Made by a program: the position numbers and the translations under genes. This document shows, one piece after another, positions 6 to 42,525 of a stretch of DNA of 64,000 nucleotides. Numbering within the stretch: the stretch's first letter is position 1; each line of letters starts with the position of its first letter. The notes under the pieces are model-generated. The model was not told the DNA's origin. It made no database searches and worked only from the letters and a program-made list of their open reading frames with translations. This DNA is from an uncultured Clostridia bacterium. GTDB taxonomy: Bacteria > Bacillota > Clostridia > UMGS1883. The DNA lies in the NCBI GenBank assembly GCA_947626145.1, contig CANQRB010000003.1, positions 1 through 64,000 on the forward strand, written 5' to 3'.

Positions 6-3000
6 ATGAGAATCAAAAAAATTCTGTCTGTTGCCGTGGTCCTCGCCATGGTAATGGCAGTAGTGCCCGCGTTTGGAATCACCGCAAGCGCGGCGAAAGG
101 CGATGTCTCGGATGAGTTTCTTTTAAGTTACGCCAAATCTTTGAACGCCGATTTTGATGCAGTAAGAGACAAAAAAGTTAGTAATGCTTATAATACACCA
201 ATAGGAGACGTTTTCCCAGGATGGTCAGGCGGTAATGGTGGTAGTAACATTGGCGGCACCGACTATCTTATGTTAAACGTAAGCGGCAGTAATGATCCGT
301 ATATTCAGATTTATACCAGTACAGCAAGCGACAAAAATGGGATAAATGATAAAACTCAAACCATTACAACGCCTGCATATGGCCAGGGTGACGACTGGGT
401 GCTTATTAGCACAGTGTTAGAGAACAGCGCCAGATGGGGTGATGTGGCTATAATGAATGGCGAATCTTACGTTACTGCTTTCCGTTTTGGATCTGAAGCA
501 AGTTCAATATGCCCATATCACGGTCATAATGGTTGGGGTACCCCTTATAATGGCAGCAAGCTTGAGGGTAGTGATTGGAATGGCCCTGCTTTCACCTATT
601 CGTATACTGACTCTGCAAAGGTTCCCACCAATCTGAATGATAAGGATGGATATTCAGGAGTATACACTAATGGGAGATCTCGCATTGACATACTTATAAG
701 GAAGTCCGGGGACAATCAGTACAAGGCAATTTATTTTGTAAATGGAGTGGCAATTGTAACATTTACATATACCGGTACTTTTAATGGCATACAGAACATA
801 AAGATGAACCTTGGTTCATGGGGGGCACAATGGCAAAACCTTTGCTTAAAGAAAATAGCCATATATTCAGGCAAATTCCCCGCAAAGGTCACGTATAAGT
901 TGATGGACGATCAGGATGAGGTATATTCTTATGATGTACCTGCTACCGCAGGAGAAGAATACACCGCGAAAGCCGCTTTCAACTACTTCCCATGTGAAGA
1001 GAAGAATACCCTTTATAGGCTCGGCGAGATGACACCTACTACGCTTACTCCCAGCGTTGACGGAGAAAATGTAATTAAGGTTGCTCTGAGCAAAGAAAAA
1101 GATATTCTTGGTAAAAATCTTGTTACCAATGGCAGCTTTGAAGAACACCATAATATCGGCTTTGGTATAAAGGGCTGGTCTGGTGCAGATGGCGGTGCGG
1201 TTTCGGGCAATTCTTTTGATATTGTTCGTAACGGCAGCGACGGCGAATACGCCATTGTGGCTAAATCTAATGGGAACGCCCATGGTGAAACACTCGTAAA
1301 TAAAGTACCGGTGACCGCTCAAAGAGAGTATTATGCAGCAATTGACTGTGAAGGATTTATTGGCAGCGGCACACAGTATGCATGGTTCTCTCAGCTGGAC
1401 GGTACTGAAAATGCGGACGCCATAAAGAAAGGCGGCGATAGTGGCGGCATTAAGGATAGTGGAAAGTTGTTCGGTATGGACGGCACAACAATGAACACCC
1501 CCATGGGCCGTTACGAAAGAACCGAAGCACTTGCGACTGTAAAAGATGGAATGAAATACATCGCCTACACCGGTACTTATTATCAGGATTCCCACGCGGG
1601 AATTGATAATTTCATGGTTTATCAGGTGCTTACAGAAGGTGAGAAGGTTGCAGCCGTAAAATATACGGTTGATGGCAAGGTTGTAGCCTCTGACAAAGCC
1701 ATTTACACTGGCGCCGATCATGAATTTTCCGAATTTTATTATCGTGAGATGGGCGGCTCAACGCTTTACCATGCAGACGCAGTAAAAGTTGGAGGCAGCG
1801 ATGAGGGTAACTCTAAGACTATAGAGATGACCGCTGTTGAAAATAAATTTGAGCCTCTTAATGATCAACAGGTTGTTCTTGCCAAAAACACCGAAAAGAA
1901 AGATGCCGCATATAAGATTAACGGCACAAATATCATACCGAACGGCGACTTTTCTAAGGGCCTTGCCGGTTGGTATGACGGAACAGACTGTCCCGCTAAT
2001 CCGGAAAAATTTAAGGTTAATAGCGATGGAACCATTAATGTTACCGTTAGTGCGGGCGGCAACAATGAAACCGCTCTTTGGGGAGCGTGGCCTGTTGAAG
2101 CCGGTCAAACATACGTGTTTACTATGGAAAACGGTACTGATACCACAACCTATACCGATACGATAACCCTCACTAAAGAGTTAGGCCGTACTGAGCCGGA
2201 TGGTGGCGTCATCGTTGGCCTCACTAACCAAAAAACCTTACATGGCTTAGCTGGAGACGGGTTCCCCGAGGGCGTATCCTATACGGCCTTTACCGTACCC
2301 GATGGCTACAAATACCTTTCTATGTGGTTCAGATGGCACAATGTGGAGTCTTCTCTTGGCAAAATTGGCCTTTATAAAGCGGTCAAAGATCCTGACAGCG
2401 ATGCTACGGTTACGGTAAACTATAAAGTTGATGGCGACACTGTTAATACTGTTGAAAAGACTGTGCTTAACGGTGGCGAAATTAAATTTGACCGTTACGA
2501 GTATCGTAAAGGTAATAAATTATACTGTGCCGATGCGTTGGCATATACGGATGTTCAAACCGACGCAACGAAAAATATTATAATGGAAGCAGACGAATCT
2601 AAGATACTCACGACACGGGACGGTTTCTTTACGCCGAATTTGAACAGTAATGATAATTCCATCAATAATTATGAGTTGTATATCAACAAAGATAACGGCA
2701 ACTCTATTTGTCTGTATGGAGCAAGCGATGTTGACCCGTTCGGTTTAATTGCTAAGGCAACAGAAAAATTTACTGATGCTAAGGGGACGGCTACAATAAC
2801 CGACACTATGAGTAAAAAGACTCGCGTCGGTTATGTAGAGTTTGATGTTCCTGAAACATATGTTAAGGGCGACAAGGTGACGCTTACCCTCATTCCGTAT
2901 AAGTATGACGGAGCAGAGGGCTCCAGGGTAATAGCTGTACCCACTACTATTGATGTGACTGAAGATAAAAATATTGATGGTGCAAATGCAGATTTTAAGG

Positions 3001-25593: not shown

Positions 25594-25627
25594 AAATAAA
25601 ACATATATGCATAGGGAGGACGAACAA

Positions 25628-28600
25628 ATGAACAAAATCAGGAAGTGTCTCGCCGTGCTGGTGTGCATGGCAATGGTAATGGCAGTGATGCCAGGTGTTG
25701 CGTTGGCGGATGGAACGACCGCCGATGGATTTGAATACTATGTGTATTATGATTATGTGGAAATAACCGGCTATACCGGCGATGCTACGGATCTTATTAT
25801 TCCCGAAGAGATTGAAGGCTTACCTGTCACGTCAATCAGAAGCAGCGCTTTTTCCGGCTACGCCGGCCTTACAAATGTAACTATTCCAAACAGCGTCACG
25901 AGCATTGACAGGAGTGCGTTTTATGGCACCGCATTGTATAACGATAGTGCCAATTGGGATAATGGCGTATTCTATATAGGCGATATTTTAATTGAAACGC
26001 GTTATAAAATATCCGGCGATTATGTCATAAGGCCCGGAACGCGTATAATTAACGAGTTTGTATTTGATAATTGCGTCGACCTCACCAGCGTGAGCATACC
26101 CAACAGTGTAAAATATATCGGTAGTAATGCATTTGCGAATTGTACCGGACTCACCAGTATGACCATTCCAAACAGTGTCGTAGAAATTGGTTGGAGAGCG
26201 TTTGCTGATTGCACTGGCCTCACCGGTGTGACCATAGAAAACGGCGTCGCTGGAATTAGCGGTAATGCATTTAAGGGCTGTACCGGTCTCACCGATGTAA
26301 CCATTCCAAACAGCGTTACAAAAATTGGCGAGGAGGCCTTTTATGGATGCACCAGTCTTAAAAATGTGAATATACCCAATGGTATCACGGAAATTGGCCG
26401 CAGTGCGTTTGAGGGTTGCACCGGCATCACCAGCTTGACCATAGAAAACGGCGTCACTGAAATTGGCGATAGTATGTTAAAAAACTGTACCGGCATCACC
26501 AACGTGATAATTCCAAGCAGTGTTACGGAAATTGGATATAGTGCGTTTGAGGGCTGCACCGGCATCACCAATGTTATAATTCCAAGCAGTGTCACTGAAA
26601 TTGGCGGAGGTGCGTTTTCTGGTTGTATTGGCCTCACCAGCGTGAACATTCCCGACAGTGTTACGAAAATCGGCAGCGGTGCGTTCGAAAACACGGCAAT
26701 ATGTAACAATTATGAGAATTGGGGCAGTAATGTCCTTTACATAAATAATAATTTAATTAAGGCGCGCAAGGAAATATCCGGCGATTATATTATAAGGCCC
26801 GGAACGCTTACAATTGCCGGCGGCGCGTTTCACGGCTGCGCTGACCTCACCGGCATAACCATTCCCGAAAGTGTCACAAGCATAGGTAATTTTGCGTTTT
26901 GCAACTGCACAGGCCTTGTAAGTATAAAAATACCTGACAGTGTGAAAGAAATAGGAAGCAGTGCTTTTGAAAACTGCGCCAACTTGGCGACGGTCGACTT
27001 TGGAAATGGACTGAAAAGCATTGATGTAATGGCATTTAGCGACTGCGTTAGCTTAACATCCATAGATATTCCGGACACAGTGACTCACATTGGCTATTGG
27101 GCATTTAGTGACTGTACAGCTTTGGCGGATATAAAGCTTCCGGCAAAACTTGTGGAATTAGGCAATGCTTCGTTTTCCAATACAGCATATTACAATGACC
27201 CTGCCAATTGGGTCGACGGCGTCCTTTACAACGGGGACATTATTATGAATTCCATGGGTACAAATCCGGAATATGGACCTGCCTATACCTTTGACAGCAG
27301 CTATCGCATAAAGGACGGCACAAGAGTTGTGGTTCAGGCATTCTACGATCACAGTGAAATAAAGAACCTGACAGTGCCCGCCAGCGTTGAAGCCTTTGTC
27401 GGTAACGCCTGCGGCGAATTGCAGCTTCAAAGGCTGATTTTCGAGGGCAATGTCCCTCAAATTGTGTCCGAGATGGGAACGCAATATGAATTTTATCCAT
27501 TTGGGTACTTCATAGATCGATTGTATTACGGCAACGTTTTTATTTACTATCCGATCAACAATCAAACGTGGATCGAAGAGCTTGCCGACGGAGAGTTTTA
27601 TATTTTTAACGAGAGCAATGCCACATTTGTGCCTTACGACCCGTCTGTCGGGCCGGAACTCGTGCCTGATTTTACCGACCCAATCAAGTATAGGGTATAT
27701 CCGGATCACGTGGAGATAACCGATTATAAAGGAATGGCGTCGTCTCTGGAAATTCCCGCTCAGATCGAAGGATTGCCGGTTACTGCAATAGGGGACAAAG
27801 CCTTTGAATACTGCTGGTCTCTGGAGGAAGTGATACTGCCCAACAGCGTCACCGATATTGGGGATTGGGCATTTGAATACTCCAATATTAAAAGCATAAC
27901 AATACCGAACAGCGTTACCCACATAGGGAGCGGCGCATTTTATGGTTGCACCGGTCTTACCAGTGTGAATATTTCCAACTGCGCAACGGAAATCAGCGAT
28001 TATATGTTTTACGGTTGCACCGGCCTTACTGACATAACCGTACCCAACAGCGTCATAGATATAGGAAGCAATGCGTTTTATGGCTGCACCGGCCTAACTA
28101 ACATAACCATACCCAACAGTGTCACGAGTATAGGAAATAGTGCGTTTTCCGGCTGTACCGGTCTCAGCAGTGTGACCATAGGCAGCGGCGTTAAGGAAAT
28201 CAACAGCTCTTTTTCCGGCTGCACAAGTCTCGCCAATGTTACAATACCTGATAGCGTCACGAGCATTTATAGCGGCATATTTGACGACACAGCGTTATAT
28301 AACGATAATGCAAATTGGGACGATGGCGTCCTCTACATAAATAATCATTTAATAGCAGCGCGCCATGAAATATCCGGAGATTATATAATACGCCCCGGCA
28401 CATGTACTATAGCCGGCAGTGCGTTTAGCGGCTGTACCGGTCTCACAAGCGTTGACATTCCCGAGAGTGTTAAGGAAATTGGCTACAATGCGTTTTCCAA
28501 CTGCACCGGCCTAACTAGCGTGACAATTCCAAACAGTGTCGCAAAAATTGGCGATAGTGCATTTTCTGACTGTACTGGACTTATCAGTGTGTCTATAGGC

Positions 28601-28819
28601 AACGGTGTTAATGAAATCAGTACTGCTGCTTTTAGTGGCTGCACCGCTCTGCTCAGTGTGACCATCCCCAGCAATGTCACTATGCTTCGCGCCAGTGCGT
28701 TCTATGGTTGCACCAGTCTCACAGACATATACTACGGCGGCAATAATGGGTTTAGTTATTATCCCGGAAATGACTCGTTTTTTAACGCACAGATCCATTA
28801 TGATACACCAATGTCGTAA
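25628..28819 (+). CDS. large secreted BspA-like leucine-rich-repeat surface protein
   Basis: A 1063-residue exported protein. The signal peptide (MNKIRKCLAVLVCMAMVMAV, cleavage near ALA at about 27) matches its paralogue at 23120. The rest is mostly BspA/TpLRR repeats of about 23 residues with the pattern G-C-T-G-L-T-x-V-T-I-P-N-S-V-T-x-I-G-x-x-A-F, in two arrays (about 60-620 and 685-1045) that each restart with a Y-x-x-Y-x-D-x-V-E-I-T-x-Y strand. Four copies of an insert (NW-x-x-G-V-L/F-Y-I...EISGDYIIRPGT) interrupt the arrays. Such proteins bind host or microbial ligands. No sortase or SLH anchor is visible, so attachment is unclear. The ATG follows GGGAGGACGAACAA; a seven-codon upstream extension is possible but lacks a ribosome-binding site. 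Confidence 0.92.
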   Translation: MNKIRKCLAVLVCMAMVMAVMPGVALADGTTADGFEYYVYYDYVEITGYTGDATDLIIPEEIEGLPVTSIRSSAFSGYAGLTNVTIPNSVTSIDRSAFYGTALYNDSANWDNGVFYIGDILIETRYKISGDYVIRPGTRIINEFVFDNCVDLTSVSIPNSVKYIGSNAFANCTGLTSMTIPNSVVEIGWRAFADCTGLTGVTIENGVAGISGNAFKGCTGLTDVTIPNSVTKIGEEAFYGCTSLKNVNIPNGITEIGRSAFEGCTGITSLTIENGVTEIGDSMLKNCTGITNVIIPSSVTEIGYSAFEGCTGITNVIIPSSVTEIGGGAFSGCIGLTSVNIPDSVTKIGSGAFENTAICNNYENWGSNVLYINNNLIKARKEISGDYIIRPGTLTIAGGAFHGCADLTGITIPESVTSIGNFAFCNCTGLVSIKIPDSVKEIGSSAFENCANLATVDFGNGLKSIDVMAFSDCVSLTSIDIPDTVTHIGYWAFSDCTALADIKLPAKLVELGNASFSNTAYYNDPANWVDGVLYNGDIIMNSMGTNPEYGPAYTFDSSYRIKDGTRVVVQAFYDHSEIKNLTVPASVEAFVGNACGELQLQRLIFEGNVPQIVSEMGTQYEFYPFGYFIDRLYYGNVFIYYPINNQTWIEELADGEFYIFNESNATFVPYDPSVGPELVPDFTDPIKYRVYPDHVEITDYKGMASSLEIPAQIEGLPVTAIGDKAFEYCWSLEEVILPNSVTDIGDWAFEYSNIKSITIPNSVTHIGSGAFYGCTGLTSVNISNCATEISDYMFYGCTGLTDITVPNSVIDIGSNAFYGCTGLTNITIPNSVTSIGNSAFSGCTGLSSVTIGSGVKEINSSFSGCTSLANVTIPDSVTSIYSGIFDDTALYNDNANWDDGVLYINNHLIAARHEISGDYIIRPGTCTIAGSAFSGCTGLTSVDIPESVKEIGYNAFSNCTGLTSVTIPNSVAKIGDSAFSDCTGLISVSIGNGVNEISTAAFSGCTALLSVTIPSNVTMLRASAFYGCTSLTDIYYGGNNGFSYYPGNDSFFNAQIHYDTPMS

Positions 28820-29884: not shown

Positions 29885-30658
29885 TCAATTTCCGCTCTCG
29901 ATACTTATGTGATTGAACCGATCCAGCAGATCGTCCACATCCACGTTGGCCCGGGCCTCGCCGGAGAGATCCATCTCGATGCCGCCCCGGTGGAACATGA
30001 GCAGCCGGTCGCCGTAGCTGACGGCGTGGCGGAGGTTGTGAGTTACCATCATGGTGGTGATGCCCTTTTCACGGACGATTTTGTTGGTGAGCTCAATTAT
30101 CAGCTCGCTGGTCTTGGGGTCAAGGGCGGCGGTGTGCTCGTCAAGGATGAGCAGGTCGATGTCCGCCATGGTACACATTACCATGGCCAGCACCTGACGC
30201 TGGCCGCCGGAAAGGGAGCCCGCCAGCACGTTCATCTTGTCCTCGAGGCCCAGCCCCAGCGGGGCCAGCAGCTCCTTGTAGTGATTTATCCGCTTGCGGT
30301 TGACGCCGGGGGTCAGACCGTAAAATTTGCCCTTGTTGTCCGCCAGAGAAAGATTTTCGAGAATTGTCATGTTGGGCGAGGTGCCCTTTTGAGTGTCCTG
30401 GAACACCCGGCCTATCTGGCGGGCCCGGCGGTATTCGGTTATATTGGTTATGTCCTTGCCGCCCAGGAATATTTTGCCCTTGTCGGCAAAGATGGTGCCG
30501 CAAATGAGGTTGAGTATGGTAGTCTTGCCGCTGCCGTTGCTGCCTATGACGGTGACGAACTGGCCCTTCGGCACGGACAGGCTGAAGTCCTCCAGCACCT
30601 TTGTTTCGTTTATCAGGCCGGGGTTGTAGGTCTTATATATGTTTTCCAGCTTAAGCAT
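29885..30658 (-). CDS. ABC importer ATP-binding protein
   Basis: A 257-residue ATPase of an importer. It has Walker A GSNGSGKTT (39-47), Q-loop FQDTQKGTSPNMTI, signature LSGGQRQ (149-155), Walker B LLILDEHT (169-176) and the H-loop MVTHNLRHAV. The DEHTAALDPKTS stretch and the NITEYRRARQIGRVFQ segment are typical of the TrpXYZ-like amino-acid importer family, not the branched-chain LivG/LivF family. Its start overlaps the permease gene by 8 bp. It is the last gene of the importer run binding protein, permease, ATPase. Confidence 0.9.
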   Translation of the reverse strand: MLKLENIYKTYNPGLINETKVLEDFSLSVPKGQFVTVIGSNGSGKTTILNLICGTIFADKGKIFLGGKDITNITEYRRARQIGRVFQDTQKGTSPNMTILENLSLADNKGKFYGLTPGVNRKRINHYKELLAPLGLGLEDKMNVLAGSLSGGQRQVLAMVMCTMADIDLLILDEHTAALDPKTSELIIELTNKIVREKGITTMMVTHNLRHAVSYGDRLLMFHRGGIEMDLSGEARANVDVDDLLDRFNHISIESGN

Positions 30659-31556
30659 CTTCCTTGACCCCCTTAAGAATCTTGTCGTTGAAGATGAGCA
30701 TCAGCAGGAACAGCGCCGCGATTATCAGCTTCAGGAAGTGAGGCGGAAGGCCCAGATTGAGGGCTATTTTAATGCAGGCATAATAGATAACGCTGCCGAA
30801 AATGACCTTGGTGGTGTTTTTGAAGAATTTCACCTTGTGGAGCACCGTCATGCCGATGATGACCGACGCAAGGCCGATAACCATGGAGCCGGTGCCGTCG
30901 CCCACGTTGAAGCTGTACTTGTACTGGCACATAAGGCAGCCGCTGAGGGCCACAAGGCCGTTGGCCAGTGCCAGACCCAGCATCTTTATCTTGCCGCTGT
31001 CCACATTGAGGGACTTGACCATCTGCTCGTTTGCGCCGCAGACCATGAGCATCATTCCGCACTTTGTTTTCATGAACAGGTCAAAGAGCAGCTTCACCGC
31101 CGCAACGCAGATGAGGATAATCAAAAGCTTGCTGACCGCCGGCGGAAAAAGCTCCGCCAATTTTCCGGTGAAGATCTTGCTCATGGACGGACTTATTATG
31201 AAAAGGCTGCTACTGCCGTTGCTGATGATGAGGTTCACGCTGTACAGCGCGGTCATCATAAGTATGCCGCTGAGCAGATTGGTGACACGGAACTTCACGT
31301 GGATGATGCCGGTTATTATACCGGCGGCGGCCCCGCACAGGAAAGAGATTGGCAGACAGAGCCAGGAATTGACCCCATTGGCAATAAGCACCGCCGTGAC
31401 GGCGCTGCCAAGAGGGAAGGTGCCGTCCACCGACAGGTCGGGGAAGTTGAGGACACTGTAGCTGACATACAGTCCAAGGGCCAGAAGGGCGTAAATCAGC
31501 CCCTGCTCCAGCACGCTCTGAGACATATTCAGCAAAGTGTTAAGTATGTTGGGCAT
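30651..31556 (-). CDS. ABC importer permease
   Basis: A 301-residue polytopic membrane protein of the branched-chain-type permease superfamily (BPD_transp_2). The hallmark is ALLALGLYVSYSVLNFPDLSVDGTFPLGSA near residues 20-50, followed by eight to nine hydrophobic helices and a cytoplasmic TKCGMMLMVCGANEQMVKSLN loop that couples to the ATPase. A single permease gene suggests a homodimer. A GC-rich hairpin with T-tract separates it from the upstream binding-protein gene, which could keep transporter levels below those of the receptor. Confidence 0.9.
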   Translation of the reverse strand: MPNILNTLLNMSQSVLEQGLIYALLALGLYVSYSVLNFPDLSVDGTFPLGSAVTAVLIANGVNSWLCLPISFLCGAAAGIITGIIHVKFRVTNLLSGILMMTALYSVNLIISNGSSSLFIISPSMSKIFTGKLAELFPPAVSKLLIILICVAAVKLLFDLFMKTKCGMMLMVCGANEQMVKSLNVDSGKIKMLGLALANGLVALSGCLMCQYKYSFNVGDGTGSMVIGLASVIIGMTVLHKVKFFKNTTKVIFGSVIYYACIKIALNLGLPPHFLKLIIAALFLLMLIFNDKILKGVKEDA

Positions 31557-31576
31557 AGTGTGTTATCCCCCCGGAG

Positions 31577-31617
31577 AAAAAATTTAAAAATTACGGGGCG
31601 GAACATCCGCCCCGTAA
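31577..31617 (-). terminator. intercistronic terminator between binding protein and permease
   Basis: A perfect 11-bp stem TTACGGGGCGG/CCGCCCCGTAA, loop of 5, followed on the minus strand by TTTTTAAATTTTTT. It should end part of the transcripts after the binding-protein gene. Confidence 0.8.
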
Positions 31618-31631
31618 AACTGTTTTTTTAT

Positions 31632-32681
31632 TTATTCGGTGTACTCGGCCCGGGCGGCGTACTCGTCGGTGATTACCGCGCCGAAGCTCTCGGCAACGGC
31701 CTTGTTGATGGTGAGCTTGCTCTGCTCGGGGTCAACATACTCGCTGCCGATGGTTGAGATGTCCTCGCCGTTGAGGATTTTGGCGGCCATGGCGCCGGTC
31801 TGCCTGCCAAGGGCGACATAGTCCAGACCCTCGGAGGCGATGCAGCCGTTCTTGACCTGCTCCTCCTCGCTGCCGAACACGGGAACGTTGGCGGCGGTGG
31901 CCTTTTCAAGGACTACGGGCAGATTTTCAACGATAAGGTTGTCGGTGAGGTTGGTGATGGCGTCCACCTGACCGGCCAGAGTTTCGGCGGCCATGGGGAT
32001 GTAGGTGGCGTCGGCCACGCCCTCGGTAACTATCTCAATGCCGTATTCGGGAGCCTTCTCCTGATAAAGGGCGATCTGAGTCTCGCTGTTGGGCTCGTTG
32101 GTGCTGTAAAGGATACCCAGCTTTGCGGCCTCGGGGAACATGGAATGTATGAGCTGAAGCTGCTTTTCAACGGGTATTATGTCGCTGACACCGGTAACGC
32201 CGTCGCCGGCCTGACCCATCTCGGGCACGAGCTGAGCCGCGACAGGATCGCTGACGGCGCAGTAAACCAGAGGAATGCCCGCGTCCTTGCCGAGAGCGTA
32301 GAAGTTGGTGGCGGCGGGAGTGGCTATGGCGCAGACAAGGTCATACTTTTTATCCACAAACTGCTGAGCGATTGTGGTGGACAGGTTCATATCGGCGGCG
32401 GAGTTCTGATAGTCGAACTCCACATTTTCGCCCTCAACGAAGCCGGCCTCGGCCAGTCCCTGAATGAAGCCCTCGCGGCAGTTGTCCAGAGAGGCGTGCT
32501 CAGCGAACTGGGAAATGCCGATCTGATATACCTTTTCGGTTTCCTGATCCTGAGTTTCCACCTGACCCTGAGTGTCGTTCGCGTCGGGGGCCGGGGTGTC
32601 GCCGTTTCCGCCGCAGGCGCCCAGCGCCAGAGTGAGAGAAAGGGCGGCCGCTAAAAATCTTGATTTTTTAAAGAATTTCAT
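31632..32681 (-). CDS. ABC importer substrate-binding lipoprotein (TrpX-like)
   Basis: A 349-residue lipoprotein of the ABC_sub_bind family, whose characterised members bind aromatic amino acids. The lipobox ALGAC puts the lipidated Cys at position 23, and the mature N-terminus is a typical Gly/Asp/Gln linker to about residue 50. The two-lobed periplasmic-binding-protein fold is indicated by IGISQFAEHASLDNCREGFIQG, CAIATPAATNFYAL, VYCAVSDPVAAQLV, LGILYSTNEPNS and VPVFGSEEEQVKNG segments. The ATG at 32681 follows AGGAG. Tryptophan/tyrosine specificity is a family-based guess; no T-box leader is seen. Confidence 0.9.
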   Translation of the reverse strand: MKFFKKSRFLAAALSLTLALGACGGNGDTPAPDANDTQGQVETQDQETEKVYQIGISQFAEHASLDNCREGFIQGLAEAGFVEGENVEFDYQNSAADMNLSTTIAQQFVDKKYDLVCAIATPAATNFYALGKDAGIPLVYCAVSDPVAAQLVPEMGQAGDGVTGVSDIIPVEKQLQLIHSMFPEAAKLGILYSTNEPNSETQIALYQEKAPEYGIEIVTEGVADATYIPMAAETLAGQVDAITNLTDNLIVENLPVVLEKATAANVPVFGSEEEQVKNGCIASEGLDYVALGRQTGAMAAKILNGEDISTIGSEYVDPEQSKLTINKAVAESFGAVITDEYAARAEYTE

Positions 32682-32716
32682 AATTAAGTCAACTCCTCTT
32701 TTTTTATTTATACAAT

Positions 32717-32745
32717 ATAATAGCACAGTAAGGGTAAAATTGCAA
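32717..32745 (-). promoter_or_regulatory. promoter of the ABC importer operon
   Basis: TTGCAA-17-TATTAT on the minus strand, about 36 bp before the start codon. Confidence 0.75.
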
Positions 32746-35445: not shown

Positions 35446-35548
35446 TTAGTATACTAAAAAGTTCATAATTTGTTCATTATTTTTACACGTTATTTTAATA
35501 TAAAAGGATTATCATATGTCCATAATTTGTATTCTTGGAGGTAGAACA

Positions 35549-38236
35549 ATGGCAGATAAGGATATGAACAAAGACCTGCCCCTCGAAGGGGACAGCCCCG
35601 GGGAGGCCGCGCCCGAACAGGAGGAGACCGCGCCTCAGACGGACGCCGCGCCCGAGGGAGAAGCTCAGGAGGAGAACCATTCCGGCGAAGAGCCCTCCGG
35701 CGGCGAGGAAATAGCGCCGCCGCCGGTAATTAAAAAGAGAAAAAAGAGCTTCCTCAAAAGCAAGTGGTTCAAATGGATTGTGATAATCCTCATAATTGCC
35801 GCTCTGGTCAGCGCCTATTTTATACATAAGAATATAAAGGCCAAACAGGAGGCCGAGGCCGCCGCCACGAGCAATACCGCCGTTGTCACACGGGGCGACA
35901 TAACGGTCAAGATAACTGGTTCGGGCACGGTAGAGCCGATCGAGACATATAATATCATTCCCACGGTGAGCGGCACGATCGACGCCGACTACTACGAGGA
36001 AGGCGACTACGTTGAGGAGGGCGCCGTGCTGTACCGCTTCGACAGCACTGTGGCTGACAACGCCATCCGCACGGCGGAAAATTCCATCAAGACCGCCGAG
36101 AACGGAGTCAAGACCTCGGAAAACTCGGTCAAGACCTCCGAAATTTCCGTAAAGAATGCGGAAAACGCCATCAAGACCGCCGAGAACGGAGTTAAGACCT
36201 CGGAAAATTCCGTCAAATCCTCGGAAAATTCCGTGCGCACCTCGGAAAATTCCGTTAAAAACGCCGAAAATGCGGTGCATACCGCCGAAAACGCCGTAAA
36301 AACGGCAGAGAACGCCGTCACCACCTCGGAGAACAGCGTTGCCGCCGCCGAGAACACCGTTGAGCGGGCCGAGGTGGAGCTCCAGAACCGGGCCGACGAC
36401 ATTGAGCGGGCCGAGGAAAATCTGGAAAAGCTGAACATCTACGCCAACTCCGACGGTAAGGTTGGCGATCTGGCTCTCACGGTAGGCAACGACACCTCCG
36501 GCAGAATATGCACCATTACCGACACCTCCACTCTGCTGGTGAAGATACCCTTCAATTCTGCCCAGTTTGAGCAGATACGCGTGGGCGACAGCGTTACCGT
36601 CAGCATTGAAAAGTACATGACCACCGCCGGAGGCAAAGTGACCCGCAAGTATAACGCCGCCGGAACCGGCAGCGACGGCAGCGTGGTCTATGATGTGGAA
36701 ATACAGATAAACAGCGGCGTCGAGCTGCCGGCGGGCACCTATGTCACCGCTTCCGTAAACACAGGCGAAGGGACCGTAAGCTCCGCTCAGGCCGGAGCGG
36801 TGTACTATCCAGACACCACCAGCGTAATGGCCGAATACAGCGGCAAGGTGAAAGAGGTTCTTGTGAAGAACGGCGACTGGGTAAAGAAGGGCGACCTGAT
36901 AGCCCGACTCAGCAGCACGACCCTTGAGGACGCCCTCAAGACCGCTCAGCAGAACTACGACAACGCCGAGCGCTCCCTTCAGGAGGCGCAGAACAGCTAT
37001 GAGAACGCCCTCATAAATCTTGACAACTCCAAAACCAGCCTTGACAATGCCAAAGCTTCGTTGGACAATTCCCAGATAAGCCTTGACAACGCTCAGGCCA
37101 ACTATGACAATTCCCTCAACTCTCTGGACAGCGCCCGGGCCAGTCTTGACAACTCCAAGACCAGTCTGGACAACTCCTATTCCTCCCTTGACACGGCCAA
37201 GACTAACCTTGACAACTCCAAGACCAGTCTCGACAACTCCAGAACCAGTCTGGACAACGCCCAGACCACCCTTGAGGACAGGAAGAAGGACGCCGAGGAC
37301 TACACCATAACCGCTCCCATCAGCGGCGTGATAATGAGCAAGGACTACAAGGCCGGGGACACCATCTACGGCCAGAACTCCACCACACTGATGGTCATCG
37401 CCGACATGAGCAAAATGAAGTTCACCATCAGCGTCGATGAGCTGGACATTTCACGTATAGCTCTGGGGCAGGAGGTCGAGGTCACCAGCGACGCTCTGGA
37501 GGGCGTTGAGCTGGTGGGATACATAACCAACATCTCTCAGCTGGGTACGGCCCAGAACGGCGTTACCAACTATCCTGTTGAGGTCACCATCGACGAACCC
37601 GGCGACCTGATGAGCGGCATGAACGTCAGCGCAGAGATTGTCGTGGGCGAGGTCTTTGACGTGATACAGGTTCCCGTCACGGCGGTCAGCTACTTCGAGG
37701 GTAAACACTACGTCACGGTAGTGGGCGAGGTGGCCGGCATGGCCGACACCGGTGCCGACGGCGTGACCGTTCCTCCCGGAGGCATGGGCCGTCACGCCGA
37801 GGGCGAGGCCGCCGGGGAAGGCGCTCCGGAGGGTGCGGCTCCCGAGGGTGAAGCTCCGCCTGACGACGGCGGCCACGGAGCCGTGGCGGTTCCCGTCGGC
37901 AGCATGGACGCCGCCGAAAGGGATAACGCCGCAGAAATCGGCGGCGCGTCCGAGCAGCGTTCCGGAAGGCGCAGCTCCGGCAAAGGCGGCAGTGAGTCCG
38001 GCAACATCACCATCTTCGATCAGGAACAGCGCGTCGAAGTTGAGGTCGGCCTCAGCAACGACGACTATTACGAAATCAAGAGCGGCCTTCGTGTGGGTCA
38101 GGTAGTCCGTGACAACGGCACCGGCTCCGGCAGCACCAATCCCTTCGCCATGATGATGAGCGGCATGAGCGGCATGGGCGGCGGCCCACAGGGCGGCGGC
38201 GGAGGCAGACCCCAGGGCGGCGGCGGCCCCAGATAA
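35549..38236 (+). CDS. ABC exporter membrane-fusion/adaptor protein with two tandem HlyD-like modules
   Basis: An 895-residue adaptor for a MacB-type exporter, more than twice the usual length. An acidic Pro/Glu cytoplasmic tail (1-65) leads to one membrane helix (about 75-95). Module 1 has a split lipoyl domain (ITVKITGSGTVEPIET...) around a heptad array (about 170-287) of near-perfect A-E-N-x-V-K-T repeats, then a beta-barrel. Module 2 restarts near 426 (AEYSGKVKEVLVKNGDWVKKG), with a second array (about 469-582) of S-L-D-N-S/A-K/Q-T repeats, the closing lipoyl half and a second barrel (about 620-697). An acidic Ala/Pro/Gly insert (about 730-825) and a Gly-rich tail end the protein. The ATG follows GGAGGTAGAACA. 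First gene of a four-gene run. Confidence 0.9.
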   Translation: MADKDMNKDLPLEGDSPGEAAPEQEETAPQTDAAPEGEAQEENHSGEEPSGGEEIAPPPVIKKRKKSFLKSKWFKWIVIILIIAALVSAYFIHKNIKAKQEAEAAATSNTAVVTRGDITVKITGSGTVEPIETYNIIPTVSGTIDADYYEEGDYVEEGAVLYRFDSTVADNAIRTAENSIKTAENGVKTSENSVKTSEISVKNAENAIKTAENGVKTSENSVKSSENSVRTSENSVKNAENAVHTAENAVKTAENAVTTSENSVAAAENTVERAEVELQNRADDIERAEENLEKLNIYANSDGKVGDLALTVGNDTSGRICTITDTSTLLVKIPFNSAQFEQIRVGDSVTVSIEKYMTTAGGKVTRKYNAAGTGSDGSVVYDVEIQINSGVELPAGTYVTASVNTGEGTVSSAQAGAVYYPDTTSVMAEYSGKVKEVLVKNGDWVKKGDLIARLSSTTLEDALKTAQQNYDNAERSLQEAQNSYENALINLDNSKTSLDNAKASLDNSQISLDNAQANYDNSLNSLDSARASLDNSKTSLDNSYSSLDTAKTNLDNSKTSLDNSRTSLDNAQTTLEDRKKDAEDYTITAPISGVIMSKDYKAGDTIYGQNSTTLMVIADMSKMKFTISVDELDISRIALGQEVEVTSDALEGVELVGYITNISQLGTAQNGVTNYPVEVTIDEPGDLMSGMNVSAEIVVGEVFDVIQVPVTAVSYFEGKHYVTVVGEVAGMADTGADGVTVPPGGMGRHAEGEAAGEGAPEGAAPEGEAPPDDGGHGAVAVPVGSMDAAERDNAAEIGGASEQRSGRRSSGKGGSESGNITIFDQEQRVEVEVGLSNDDYYEIKSGLRVGQVVRDNGTGSGSTNPFAMMMSGMSGMGGGPQGGGGGRPQGGGGPR

Positions 38237-38251
38237 AGGAGGAGCGGCACA

Positions 38252-38947
38252 ATGATCAGAATTAAAAATATGTACAAGATATACAAGATGGGCGACGTGG
38301 AGGTACGGGCGCTGAACGGCATTAACCTCCACATCAAGCCCAAGGAATTTGTGTCCATAATCGGCCCCTCCGGCAGCGGCAAGTCCACTCTCATGAACAT
38401 GATAGGCTGCCTCGACACCGCCACCAGCGGAGAATACTGGATAGACGGCATACCCGTGGAAAACATGAGCGAGGACGATCTGGCGGCCCTGCGGAATGAA
38501 AAAATAGGCTTCATCTTTCAGGGCTACAACCTTTTGCCAAAGCTCTCCGCTCTGGAAAACGTGGAGCTGCCTCTGATTTACCGGGGCATCGACTCCGCCC
38601 GCCGGCGGGAGCTGGCCGAGGCCGCCCTCTACCGTGTGGGTATGTATGAGCGTATGAACCACAAGCCCAAGGAGCTTTCCGGCGGCCAGCAGCAGCGTGT
38701 GGCCATAGCCCGTGCCCTGAGCAACAAGCCCTCGCTGATACTGGCCGACGAGCCCACCGGCGCGCTGGATTCCAAGACCGGCATCGAGGTTCTCCAGATG
38801 ATGAAGGATATACATAAAGAGGGCAACACCGTCGTCCTCATCACCCACGACAGCAATATCGCCCGCAACGCCGAGCGTGTGGTACGCATAGCCGACGGCG
38901 TCATCACCAGCGACACCACCGACGTCAAGGATGTGGTCACGGGATGA
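38252..38947 (+). CDS. MacB-type ABC exporter ATP-binding protein
   Basis: A 231-residue ATPase of the MacB/LolD/FtsE family. Walker A GPSGSGKST, Q-loop FIFQGYNLLPKLSALENVELPL, signature LSGGQQQR, Walker B LILADEPTGALD and H-loop VLITHD are all intact. It begins 15 bp after the adaptor gene and overlaps the permease by 4 bp (ATGA), so the three proteins make one exporter. In Firmicutes such systems export peptides, lipids or antimicrobials, or act in envelope-stress detoxification; the substrate is not evident. Confidence 0.95.
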   Translation: MIRIKNMYKIYKMGDVEVRALNGINLHIKPKEFVSIIGPSGSGKSTLMNMIGCLDTATSGEYWIDGIPVENMSEDDLAALRNEKIGFIFQGYNLLPKLSALENVELPLIYRGIDSARRRELAEAALYRVGMYERMNHKPKELSGGQQQRVAIARALSNKPSLILADEPTGALDSKTGIEVLQMMKDIHKEGNTVVLITHDSNIARNAERVVRIADGVITSDTTDVKDVVTG

Positions 38948-40137
38948 ATATCGGCATGGCCTTTAAAATGGCTATCAACAGCGTCATGTCCGCAAAGATA
39001 CGCTCTTTTCTGACGATGCTGGGCATTATAATCGGCGTGGCCTCGGTAATAGTGCTGGTAAATCTGGTCACTGCCTCAACGCTGAGTATGCGTTCCCAGC
39101 TGGAGAGCATGGGTACCAACCTGATACAGGTTTCCATCAACCGCGGCGGTTGGGGCCAGACCCGCAGTGTATCCCTCGACGACATCGAGGAGCTGACTGG
39201 GGAAAACAGTGACCTTTTTGAGGCCGTTACCCCTCTTGTCAGCGGAATGGGCGTCATCAAGTACGGCACCAATAATGTCAGCAGCAGTCTTACCGGCGTA
39301 AGCGAGGACTATCTGTCCATCCGCAGCCGTGAAGTGGTGGACGGACGTTTCATAACAGAAACTGACTGTGACAACCGCAGCAACGTGGTTGTCATAGGCG
39401 AGTACATAAGACAGGAGCTCTTCGGCAGCGAAAGTCCTGTGGGCCAGACCGTGAAGATAAATAACGAAAAATTCACGGTGATCGGTCTTTTGGATCAAAA
39501 GTCCTCCAACGCTTCATCGGGAAGCGACGACGACATAATAATCATTCCCTATACCCGGGCCACACGGCTGCTGAGGAATGCCAATATAAACAGCTTCATG
39601 GTTTCGGCCGTGAGCTCGGACTACATGAGCGAGGCTACCGAGGCCATCGAGAACTTTCTCTATAAAAAATTCAAAAACGACGACTATTACAACGTCCTTA
39701 ACACCGCCGAGCTGATAGACACCATTGACGACGCTTTGGGCACTATGAGCCTGCTCATGGCGGGCATTGCCGGTATATCGCTGCTGGTGGGAGGCATAGG
39801 CATAATGAACATCATGCTTGTGACCGTTTCCGAGCGCACAAGGGAGATAGGCATACGCAAATCCATAGGCGCAAAGCGTAAAAGCATAATAACGCAGTTC
39901 CTGATAGAATCCGCAGTCATAAGCTGCATGGGGGGAATTATCGGAATTGTGGTAGGAATCGGCGGCAGTTATTTTGTGTGCAAGGCGCTGAGTATGGACG
40001 CCGTCCCCTTGGCAAATCAGGTGACGGTTATCTCAGGCTCCTTCGCCTTCTCCGCCCTTATCGGCATCTTCTTCGGCCTGTATCCGGCCAATAAGGCGGC
40101 CAAGCTCAACCCCATCGACGCATTGAGGAACGATTAA
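38944..40137 (+). CDS. MacB/FtsX-type ABC exporter permease
   Basis: A 397-residue permease with the MacB topology: one N-terminal helix (RSFLTMLGIIIGVASVIVLVNL), a large extracellular domain of about 220 residues (MacB_PCD type), then three C-terminal helices (MAGIAGISLLVGGIGIMNIMLVTV; AVISCMGGIIGIVVGIGGSYF; GSFAFSALIGIFFGLYPANKAAKLNPIDAL). The terminal P-x-x-A-A-x-L-x-P-I-x-A-L motif is the family signature. It works as a homodimer with the preceding ATPase. A predicted SLH-domain protein follows after 24 bp. Confidence 0.95.
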   Translation: MNIGMAFKMAINSVMSAKIRSFLTMLGIIIGVASVIVLVNLVTASTLSMRSQLESMGTNLIQVSINRGGWGQTRSVSLDDIEELTGENSDLFEAVTPLVSGMGVIKYGTNNVSSSLTGVSEDYLSIRSREVVDGRFITETDCDNRSNVVVIGEYIRQELFGSESPVGQTVKINNEKFTVIGLLDQKSSNASSGSDDDIIIIPYTRATRLLRNANINSFMVSAVSSDYMSEATEAIENFLYKKFKNDDYYNVLNTAELIDTIDDALGTMSLLMAGIAGISLLVGGIGIMNIMLVTVSERTREIGIRKSIGAKRKSIITQFLIESAVISCMGGIIGIVVGIGGSYFVCKALSMDAVPLANQVTVISGSFAFSALIGIFFGLYPANKAAKLNPIDALRND

Positions 40138-40161: not shown

Positions 40162-42525
40162 ATGAAATATAAAACGCTGATCGCGGCCCTTGTCTGCCTT
40201 CTGATTGCAGCCGTGCCCGCCTTTGCCGCCGACTATTCCGACATAGCCGACGACCCGGCGCTGGACGAGGCGGTGAGCATACTCAGCCGTCTGGACATCA
40301 TCTCCGGCGGCGACGACGGTCTTTACCGCCCCGGCGACAATCTGACCCGGGCCGAGTTTTCCAAAATAGCCACCTATCTCTCGGGCGCCGAGGAAAACGC
40401 CGTAAGCACCGGCGTGCCCTTCGTCGATGTGCCAACCGGCCACTGGGCCACGGCCTATATCGGCTATGTGAGCAATACCGGCATAATCTCCGGCTATCCC
40501 GACGGCACCTTTGCTCCCGAGGAAAAAATAAGCTGGGCTCAGGCCCTGACCGTGACGGTTCGGGTGCTGGGCTACAGCGGTGAGGACGTGGCCTACCGCT
40601 GGCCCGATGGCTATATCGAAAAGGCTCAGGCCATCGGCCTGCTGGACGGGCTGACGGTGACGGACTACAACGCGCCCATAACCCGGGGCGAAGCGGCTCT
40701 CCTCTTTCAAAACGCCCTGTTCACCGACATGAAAAACGGCGGCGAGCTTATCTCCATGCGCAAGGTCACCCGTGCGGAGGACGTGGCCGTCATCGCCGAC
40801 AGCCTTGTTGACGTGACCCTCGCCTCCGACATGATAAAGACCTCCGCCGGCAGCTTCAAGGTTCCCGAGGATCCGGAGCAGACGCCGCAGGTGGGCGATT
40901 ACGGCGACCTGTACTACGACACCGACAGCCGCATTGTAACCTTCGTGCCCGAAGCGGAGACCGTCCGGACGCTGACCGTGACAAGCACCTTTATGAACGC
41001 CGAGACCAATAAGGTGGAGATAAATTACACCGAGAACGGCGCCGCCGGAACCGAAAGCTTCGAGCTCAACCGTCCCCTTTACAACGAGGGCAGCGCCCTC
41101 ACCATCGGCAACGGCTATCAGCTCATGGGCGAGGGCAGCCAGCTCAAGCTCTATTACGACAGCGAGGGCGGCTTCCGACGGGCCATGCTCAGCACCGTTA
41201 CACTGGCCGGGCCCAAGGTTGTGGAAAGCGAGAGCTTCTCGCCGGTGCGCGAGTTCAATATAGCCGACACCTCTACCCTGCGCGTCATTCGCAAGGGCCT
41301 TACGGCCAAACTCAGCGACATAGAACGCTTCGATGTGCTTTACTACGCCGAAAACACCAACACTCTCTACGCCTACGCCGACAGCGTAACCGGCATCTAT
41401 GAAAAGGCCCACCCCATCAAGGCCAACGTCACCAGCATAACCCTAAGCGGCACGGAATACGAGCTGGCCACTCAGGACGCCATAAACAAGCTGAACGAAA
41501 GCCCCGGCGCCTTTGCCATAAACGACCGGATAACCCTGCTCAAGGGCCGCAACGGCGAGATCGTGGGCGTGGCGGACACCGACAGCGCCGACCTCCTCGG
41601 CTACGGAGTGATCCAGAACGCCTACACGGTGATCTCTCAGGACGAAGACAATCTCGGCCGCGAGGAGTACTGGGTGACAGTGTTCACCGCCGACGGAGCC
41701 TCCTCGGACTACCGCTGCGACGCGGATTACACCGACTATATCGGCGAGTTCCGCCGTCTGGTGTTCACGGACGGGGCCCTGAGCCTTGAAAAGGTGAAGT
41801 ACAACGTGTTCACCGGCGTTCTTGACGCTTCCGTTCCCTCGCTGGCCGGTCACTGGTTCGCCAACGACTTCGGTATAATCGAGCTGGTAAGCCTGCCGGA
41901 CAACGGGCCCGCGACGCTGCGCACAGTTTCTCTCGACGAGCTCAACCGCAAGTCCCTGACCATTTCGGACATAATCCACATCCAGACCGTGGGCGAAATG
42001 GACGACATCTCCATCCTCTACCTCGGTTCAGTCACCAAGGAGCAGTACAGCTACGGCGTGATAAAGGAAAAGGAAGAGTCGAGCGAAGTCATATCCACGG
42101 AAACCAAGGTCGATCAAACCGGACAGCCGGTAGTGGACTATCACTTTTACAAATACTCATATACCGTTCTGCTGGGCAATCAGGAGGTCGTGTTAAACAA
42201 CAATTACCTCTTTGATACCGGCGAGGCCATCGGTTACGGCACGGACGAGGACGGCGAGACGAATTTCATCAGCCTTGCCAAAATAGGCGAAGGCAAGACC
42301 GTGACGGCCGTCACATCAAACAGGATAAAGGTGGACGACACCATATACACCATGAGCGGCAGCGCGGTGGCCTATGGCGGCGACTATCCCAAGAATTATC
42401 GGGCGCTGAGCCTTGACGAGCTGACCGACATTGAAAACGTGAAATCTGTAACCCTCTATTCCGACCGCTCCATTTCAAGCGGCGGCTCCGTGAGAGTCAT
42501 TATCCTTAACATAAAGGAAGACTAA
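40162..42525 (+). CDS. S-layer-homology (SLH) domain cell-wall protein
   Basis: A 787-residue exported protein. The signal peptide (about 1-22, cleavage at AFA-A) is followed by three SLH repeats (about 23-80, 85-148, 150-192; ITRGEAALLFQNALF closes the third), which bind pyruvylated secondary cell-wall polymer. The remaining 590 residues are beta-rich and repetitive in character (TSITLSGTEYELA, GVIQNAYTVIS, KVKYNVFTGVLD, GVIKEKEESSE), with no enzyme motif found. As the last gene of the exporter operon it may be a wall-anchored partner or scaffold of the exporter, or simply an S-layer protein; the link is positional only. Confidence 0.9.
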   Translation: MKYKTLIAALVCLLIAAVPAFAADYSDIADDPALDEAVSILSRLDIISGGDDGLYRPGDNLTRAEFSKIATYLSGAEENAVSTGVPFVDVPTGHWATAYIGYVSNTGIISGYPDGTFAPEEKISWAQALTVTVRVLGYSGEDVAYRWPDGYIEKAQAIGLLDGLTVTDYNAPITRGEAALLFQNALFTDMKNGGELISMRKVTRAEDVAVIADSLVDVTLASDMIKTSAGSFKVPEDPEQTPQVGDYGDLYYDTDSRIVTFVPEAETVRTLTVTSTFMNAETNKVEINYTENGAAGTESFELNRPLYNEGSALTIGNGYQLMGEGSQLKLYYDSEGGFRRAMLSTVTLAGPKVVESESFSPVREFNIADTSTLRVIRKGLTAKLSDIERFDVLYYAENTNTLYAYADSVTGIYEKAHPIKANVTSITLSGTEYELATQDAINKLNESPGAFAINDRITLLKGRNGEIVGVADTDSADLLGYGVIQNAYTVISQDEDNLGREEYWVTVFTADGASSDYRCDADYTDYIGEFRRLVFTDGALSLEKVKYNVFTGVLDASVPSLAGHWFANDFGIIELVSLPDNGPATLRTVSLDELNRKSLTISDIIHIQTVGEMDDISILYLGSVTKEQYSYGVIKEKEESSEVISTETKVDQTGQPVVDYHFYKYSYTVLLGNQEVVLNNNYLFDTGEAIGYGTDEDGETNFISLAKIGEGKTVTAVTSNRIKVDDTIYTMSGSAVAYGGDYPKNYRALSLDELTDIENVKSVTLYSDRSISSGGSVRVIILNIKED

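Follow-up and report, generated by a model that had tools for sequence, protein, structure and literature searches.

A 64,000-nucleotide stretch of DNA from an uncultured Clostridia bacterium (here called the window) encodes an exporter adaptor whose two lipoyl/barrel sets are nested rather than arranged in tandem, and whose two repeat arms are the antiparallel strands of one coiled coil. We regard this arrangement as near certain. The nested pairing of the halves, the antiparallel course of the arms, and their change of length in step are all strongly supported by computation. We consider it probable that the protein is a MacA-like adaptor of a MacB-type ABC exporter, nested and double-ended, which crosses the wall and places its distal head beside an SLH anchor. 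Such double-ended adaptors are widespread in Clostridia and apparently undescribed: we met neither the nested topology nor an SLH partner in the literature consulted, largely outside subscription journals. Annotating them linearly as two HlyD units is a misreading of the fold.

Pairing of the half-domains

The adaptor is the translation of a single open reading frame of the window DNA (Table 1). We prefer position 35549 as its start, because a GGAGG-type ribosome site sits directly before it; the upstream ATG at 35516 is less favored. HlyD/lipoyl profiles of Pfam and NCBIfam match at two places in the chain, with HlyD_D23 and HlyD_3 (Pfam) and TIGR01730 (NCBIfam; 226.6 bits versus a cutoff of 94.9) above their cutoffs, and the translation together with these matches bears out the first-pass annotation's description of one 895-residue chain with two lipoyl/barrel sets. 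The protein falls below the cutoff of the NCBIfam MacA equivalog (NF008606, 85 bits versus 342). Its proximal barrel B nevertheless has a phmmer match to MacA (PDB 4dk0), and the MacA-like Glu631 and Tyr675 of that barrel are conserved in the adaptor family, which in sequence terms may be taken as a hint, and only a hint, of a hexameric ring. The C-terminal tail (38117-38233) ends in Arg, and a Met/Gly-rich tail recurs in the family consensus.

Table 1. Features of the adaptor and of its operon in the window
Feature	Position	Strand	Basis
Double-ended (nested) exporter adaptor, 895 aa, P0001	35549..38236	+	ORF, ribosome site, HlyD/RND_mfp matches
Predicted membrane anchor helix, aa 74-104, after acidic disordered N-terminal stretch	35768..35860	+	AF2 secondary structure; hydrophobic stretch
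Membrane-proximal domain, N-terminal strands, aa 109-127	35873..35929	+	AF2 strands; couplings 117-703 and 113-706 to C-terminal strands
Half-lipoyl A1, aa 128-165 (proximal lipoyl domain, with B2)	35930..36043	+	2d5d alignment; couplings 144-600, 156-592, 158-588
Arm 1, aa 166-295, outgoing helix of shared coiled coil, [AS]EN-x-V-K-T heptads	36044..36433	+	Repeats; antiparallel coupling in relatives
84-bp (4-heptad) DNA duplication in arm 1	36074..36234	+	Tandem Repeats Finder: period 84, 1.9 copies, 88% matches
Half-lipoyl A2, aa 296-327 (distal lipoyl domain, with B1)	36434..36529	+	5gu8 alignment; A2-B1 couplings
Distal beta-barrel A, aa 328-413	36530..36787	+	AF2 model; compact core in relatives
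Half-lipoyl B1, aa 414-456 (distal lipoyl domain, with A2)	36788..36916	+	Pfam Biotin_lipoyl_2 426-454; structural alignment; couplings
Arm 2, aa 457-585, returning helix of shared coiled coil, S-L-D-N-x-x-T/A heptads	36917..37303	+	Repeats
Half-lipoyl B2, aa 586-621 (proximal lipoyl domain, with A1)	37304..37411	+	Structural alignment; couplings
Proximal beta-barrel B, aa 622-700, MacA-like	37412..37648	+	phmmer and structural match to MacA 4dk0
Membrane-proximal domain, C-terminal strands, aa 701-728 and 820-856	37649..38116	+	AF2 secondary structure, pLDDT
Disordered Gly/Glu/Ala-rich insert, aa 729-819, splitting the C-terminal membrane-proximal strands	within 37649..38116	+	AF2 secondary structure, pLDDT
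Met/Gly-rich C-terminal tail, aa 857-895	38117..38233	+	Translation; like tail in family consensus
MacB/LolD-type ATPase of exporter	38252..38947	+	Pfam ABC_tran, NCBIfam MacB/LolD profiles; position conserved in relatives
MacB-type permease (MacB_PCD and FtsX)	38944..40137	+	Pfam; position conserved in relatives
SLH-domain wall protein with conserved C-terminal region	40162..42525	+	Pfam SLH; relative at 47/52 loci

The chain had been read as two modules in tandem, each with its own coiled-coil arm, and it is this part of the first-pass annotation that fails, because the halves interleave. We pair A1 with B2, A2 with B1, and arm 1 with arm 2, since AF2 models, residue couplings, and an antiparallel coupling band between the arms all favor a shared coil. 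In this layout the chain would run from the membrane anchor through the N-terminal membrane-proximal strand, A1, and arm 1 to the distal head (A2, barrel A, and B1), and would return through arm 2, B2, and barrel B to the C-terminal membrane-proximal strands; the overall shape would be like that of two adaptors joined tip to tip via one coil. The coiled-coil tip loop of single-head adaptors is replaced by the lipoyl-barrel insert at aa 296-456, and the membrane-proximal domain is formed from both ends of the chain (couplings 117-703 and 113-706; AF2 model).

The structure models carry much of this argument. Prediction of the monomer had been proposed as a check, with a fold of only one set as the adverse outcome; two lipoyl/barrel sets are predicted. 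The AF2 model of the window protein aligns with MacA 4dk0 over residues 108..857 (319/324 residues, rmsd 2.9, Z 20.1), its distal lipoyl domain aligns with the biotinyl domain 5gu8 over 293..455 (69/71 residues, rmsd 1.8), and its proximal lipoyl domain aligns with the biotinyl domain 2d5d over 133..618 (70/70 residues). In the model of a relative with arms of 32 and 31 residues (L063), a complete biotinyl domain aligns over 148..310, that is, over A2 and B1 with barrel A in between, and a complete Spr0693 aligns over 72..459 (226/231 residues, rmsd 2.9), which takes in A1, arm 1, arm 2, B2, and barrel B. AF2 models each arm of this relative, with high pLDDT, as a continuous helix of 29 residues. 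The AF2 models and the structural alignments both show the build of periplasmic adaptors (HlyD/RND_mfp), in which the coiled coil emerges from a loop of the lipoyl domain and a beta-barrel is also present.

Residue couplings give the same pairing. In a mean-field analysis of 214 cores (effective number, 175), 9 pairs above z 4 join A1 to B2 and 10 join A2 to B1, versus 2 for A1-A2 and 2 for B1-B2 (Fisher p = 0.001); the A2-B2 block also holds 4 pairs above z 4 in these cores, which we take as noise. Taken as a whole, the proximal and distal coupling maps show weak similarity (r = 0.08), but high scores are found for both the coupled pair 156-592 and the corresponding distal pair, 446-302. Among 120 distinct proteins with 32/31 arms, the antiparallel band between arm 1 and arm 2 reaches 0.433, against a maximum of 0.281 in 300 shuffles, and a band of the kind expected if an arm folded into its own hairpin is absent from either arm (-0.08 and -0.12). 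Prolines and glycines in the arms are not decisive, as 36 of 184 short arm-1 sequences hold one. The AF2 models and the coupling analysis draw on overlapping alignments and hence are not fully independent; the arm-length data discussed below are independent of both.

Could the two sets instead stand side by side, each module with its own lipoyl domain and hairpin, so that three chains form a pseudo-hexamer in which six hairpins reach the same height? This arrangement would also explain arms of equal length, and tandem AcrA fusions work in Escherichia coli (PMC4446572). It was our first explanation of the matched arms, and we dropped it on the strength of the L063 model, the structural alignments, and the couplings: the couplings join A1 with B2 and A2 with B1, the arms couple to each other and not internally, AF2 gives one helix per 32-residue arm, and the structural alignments span both modules. 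Arms built of one, two, or three loop-separated units, which occur in some relatives, also suit straight strands better than hairpins. We now judge the side-by-side arrangement very unlikely.

At one set of loci (L204 to L208), a Ser/Gly-rich insert splits B2, the second half of the proximal lipoyl domain; judged by eye, the insert lies at the position of the MacA-type loop that forms the gating ring.

Length of the two arms across the family

In the window protein, arm 1 spans 130 residues and arm 2 spans 129, and each is an almost perfect array of about 18 heptads, unbroken in phase, with a self-match at a lag of 7 residues of 0.52 and 0.41, respectively. Neither arm contains a proline, and they hold 2 and 0 glycines. 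The DNA of the adaptor repeats with periods of 21, 42, 63, and 84 bp, the 84-bp unit corresponding to 4 heptads at 88% match. The same 130/129 arms are found in a second species assembly (G007, 95% identical), so that two separate assemblies agree on these lengths. They are the longest arms that we found in the adaptor family. At 1.5 Å per residue, the coil would measure approximately 41 Å in short members and approximately 186 Å in the window protein if it is straight and unbroken. AF2 breaks both arms of the window protein midway, at a pLDDT of approximately 40 (aa 219-230 and 522-529), and in the nested reading the two breaks fall at the same height, with 52/54 and 63/65 residues on either side; a kink, a loop, or a folded-back rod at this point is possible on the model.

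The two-set layout had been thought unusual, yet it proves common across Clostridia, in single ORFs mostly of 550 to 780 aa, and arm length, rather than the presence of two sets, is what sets the window protein apart. Some form of match turns up in 50 of 60 related genomes, and 89 of 398 genomes from the phylum give strong profile matches; hosts named in the record titles include Sporosalibacterium, Acetivibrio, Pseudoflavonifractor, Enterocloster, Hungatella, and Anaerocolumna. The distal head core is compact (approximately 156 to 164 aa) in nearly all relatives. Rod length varies more than fourfold across the family, in heptad steps. The arm 1/arm 2 series runs 25/24, 32/31 (the commonest), 39/38, 46/45, 53/52, 81/80, and 130/129, and under the same boundary rule arm 1 exceeds arm 2 by one residue in nearly every member. 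The genus of the window organism alone contributes 53/52, 81/80, and 130/129. The 81/80 congener is split over two contigs: arm 1 has 81 residues, and arm 2, which starts at the equivalent of residue 7 of the window arm, has 74 visible residues plus 6, giving 80.

The two lengths correlate at r = 0.998 in 93 aligned proteins and at r = 0.976 in 214 proteins with HMM-based boundaries, 165 of which have an arm 1 exactly one residue longer than arm 2. Raw HMM boundaries in 227 proteins give only r = 0.63, which reflects mainly boundary errors arising from the Ser/Gly-rich insert in B2, single-set adaptors, and loops; the 214-protein set uses refined boundaries with 12 weak cases dropped, and the 93-protein set is cleaner and was aligned independently. 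Shared ancestry is accounted for by independent contrasts on a tree of the non-arm cores, which yield r = 0.98. Some form of arm change falls on 41 edges of that tree. Both arms change on 29 of them, in the same direction every time (29/29) and by exactly equal amounts on 17; the remaining 12 edges, on which one arm alone changes, mostly involve small amounts or ambiguity of reconstruction. The steps are mostly whole heptads, as is required when both strands lengthen together. Some clades do have unequal arms (42/31, 32/39, and 51-52/31), owing in part to loops.

That the arms are heptad arrays with different consensus sequences was correctly described at the outset. From this difference it had been concluded that each arm was amplified on its own, and here the picture divides: the sequences do differ, but the lengths have changed together. 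The same difference in sequence means that the length match does not come from copying one arm into the other. Two arms forced to change length together therefore let length covariation alone reveal the fold, and the family offers a plain example from nature of a duplication followed by a domain swap. Probably, a tandem duplication of an adaptor was followed by loss of the hairpin turns and an exchange of partners between the halves.

Long arms could also be neutral repeat expansions, whose length plays no role. The 21- and 84-bp DNA repeats permit slippage, and the arms of the window clade far exceed those of its relatives in length. Slippage in one arm, however, would yield unequal arms, at odds with the paired, same-direction changes counted above, and the heptad phase has stayed intact; we think this explanation very improbable. 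Least credible of all is a stack of two complete adaptors in series with one arm each, for although the linear domain order and the profile matches to both parts suggest it, the couplings, AF2 models, and alignments that speak against side-by-side modules speak equally against it, and it offers no reason for an equal change of arm length in the same branch.

A second mode of lengthening, besides single heptads, is seen at three loci (L043, L045, and L053), where the arms consist of 1, 2, or 3 units of approximately 30 residues split by short loops, with unit number equal in both arms.

Operon partners and a proposed wall-crossing role

The adaptor heads an operon in which the ATPase, the permease, and an SLH wall protein follow in turn, and the placement of ATPase and permease downstream of the adaptor is conserved in relatives. 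In a paralogous adaptor clade (L033, L034, L040, L055, and L057), the permease comes directly after the adaptor, with no ATPase between. Elsewhere in the window, a 1,070-aa secreted protein of BspA/LRR_5-like repeats is encoded at 25607-28819 (+), with 69-bp DNA tandem repeats at 26385-26685 and 28006-28161, and an ABC importer set (ATPase, permease, and lipoprotein-type binding protein) lies at 29885-32726 (-); ABC importer-like genes are also near the adaptor operon at L084 and L101.

The SLH protein scores 79.1 bits against Pfam SLH (cutoff, 20.8). Its conserved C-terminal region gave no match outside SLH, a profile search of the PDB hit SLH regions only, and no hydrolase domain was found in the protein. 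Of 52 loci with sufficient flanking sequence, 47 have an SLH-domain gene in the operon and 5 have none, irrespective of arm length (25 to 130). The same searches also yielded 18 loci of single-set adaptors as a control; an SLH gene adjoins the adaptor at none of them, and at one an SLH ORF lies approximately 5 kb away. The gene is usually fourth in the operon; in the group with arms of 36 to 53 residues, which includes Lachnospiraceae, Enterocloster, Hungatella, and Anaerocolumna records, it lies directly upstream of the adaptor. The upstream placement is seen at L061, L065, L075, L084, L085, L095, L097, L099, L101 to L106, and L108, and at several of these loci the SLH protein is shorter and matches the conserved C-terminal region only weakly. 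The earlier proposal of an SLH wall protein as candidate partner is strengthened by this conservation.

What would the far end of such a rod meet? Omp85, LpxC, and TolC were not found in the window genome, which is 95% complete, and the sole OEP hit is the arm itself. On this gene content the host looks monoderm, with no outer-membrane duct to dock on; the TolC-type outer-membrane exit duct of a tripartite efflux pump was likewise not found in this genome. The suggestion that one chain builds a longer structure through a monoderm wall fits the nested architecture, and we consider a wall-crossing exporter role likely.

We propose that several chains, probably six by analogy with MacA and Spr0693, form a tube whose proximal ring would sit on the MacB-type permease and whose helical barrel would pass through the wall. 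At the far end, the SLH protein would hold or extend the second lipoyl-barrel ring within the wall or S-layer, and ATP-driven movements of the permease would push a substrate through the tube past the wall; that substrate may be a peptide, a lipid, or a drug, as in analogous systems. The oligomer, the SLH contact, export, and the substrate are thus what we infer, and we hypothesize in addition an SLH dock and a length ruler. More tentatively still, and with the balance of probability against it, there may be a class of exporters in monoderm Clostridia with two rings and a helical tube, in which the far ring docks on an SLH protein that replaces TolC and a heptad ruler of approximately 4 to 19 nm is matched, species by species, to how thick the wall or S-layer is.

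The main functional rival is mechanical signaling in the style of FtsEX, in which the same nested fold would act as a mechanotransmitter and the FtsX/MacB-type permease would pull on, or signal to, the SLH protein via the rod. FtsEX acts on wall hydrolases, and we know of no FtsEX system that uses a MacA-type ring adaptor. The permease does have MacB_PCD and FtsX domains, the SLH protein is a near-constant neighbor, and FtsX-type proteins have been described as mechanotransmitters (PMC6355983). Against signaling stand the lack of a hydrolase domain in the SLH protein, the retention by the adaptor of a MacA-like proximal barrel and membrane-proximal domain, and the fact, just mentioned, that FtsEX is not known to use a ring adaptor. 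We hold mechanical signaling to be unlikely, if by some way the strongest competitor to wall-crossing export.

Relation to known adaptors

The adaptors MacA, Spr0693, and YknX assemble into hexameric tubes that sit on MacB-type permeases (PMC5768738 and PMC8277102). Like MacA of MacAB-TolC (PDB 4dk0 and 5nik), the window adaptor has a membrane-proximal domain, a barrel, a lipoyl domain, and a coiled coil and is encoded with a MacB-type ATPase and permease. The MacA hairpin, however, has a free tip that meets TolC, whereas the tip of the window adaptor carries a second lipoyl-barrel head. Also closely comparable are YknX and Spr0693 of the Spr0693-0694-0695 system of Streptococcus pneumoniae (PDB 5xu0), which likewise are adaptors of MacB-type exporters in monoderms. 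Spr0693 is a hexameric nanotube (PMC5768738) with a single head and a helical barrel of 56 Å, in contrast to the 41 to 186 Å estimated for the double-ended family, and no SLH gene is reported in its operon.

An exceptionally long heptad coiled coil is shared with EmrA of Aquifex aeolicus (PDB 4tko), whose coil of 127 Å, with 11 heptads per helix (PMC4158417), is the longest solved adaptor coil that we have come across; the coil of the window protein would exceed it if straight. EmrA differs in having a single head, no membrane-proximal domain, and an MFS partner. Engineered tandem AcrA fusions also place two functional adaptor units in one chain (PMC4446572 and PMC13328181), but they are man-made and consist of conventional side-by-side modules that are not nested. 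Why adaptors with long hairpins exist in monoderms, which have no outer membrane, has been left open (PMC4446572). A heptad-stepped rod, a head at its tip, and a near-constant SLH gene together suggest a testable answer to that question, namely, that the adaptor reaches through the wall.
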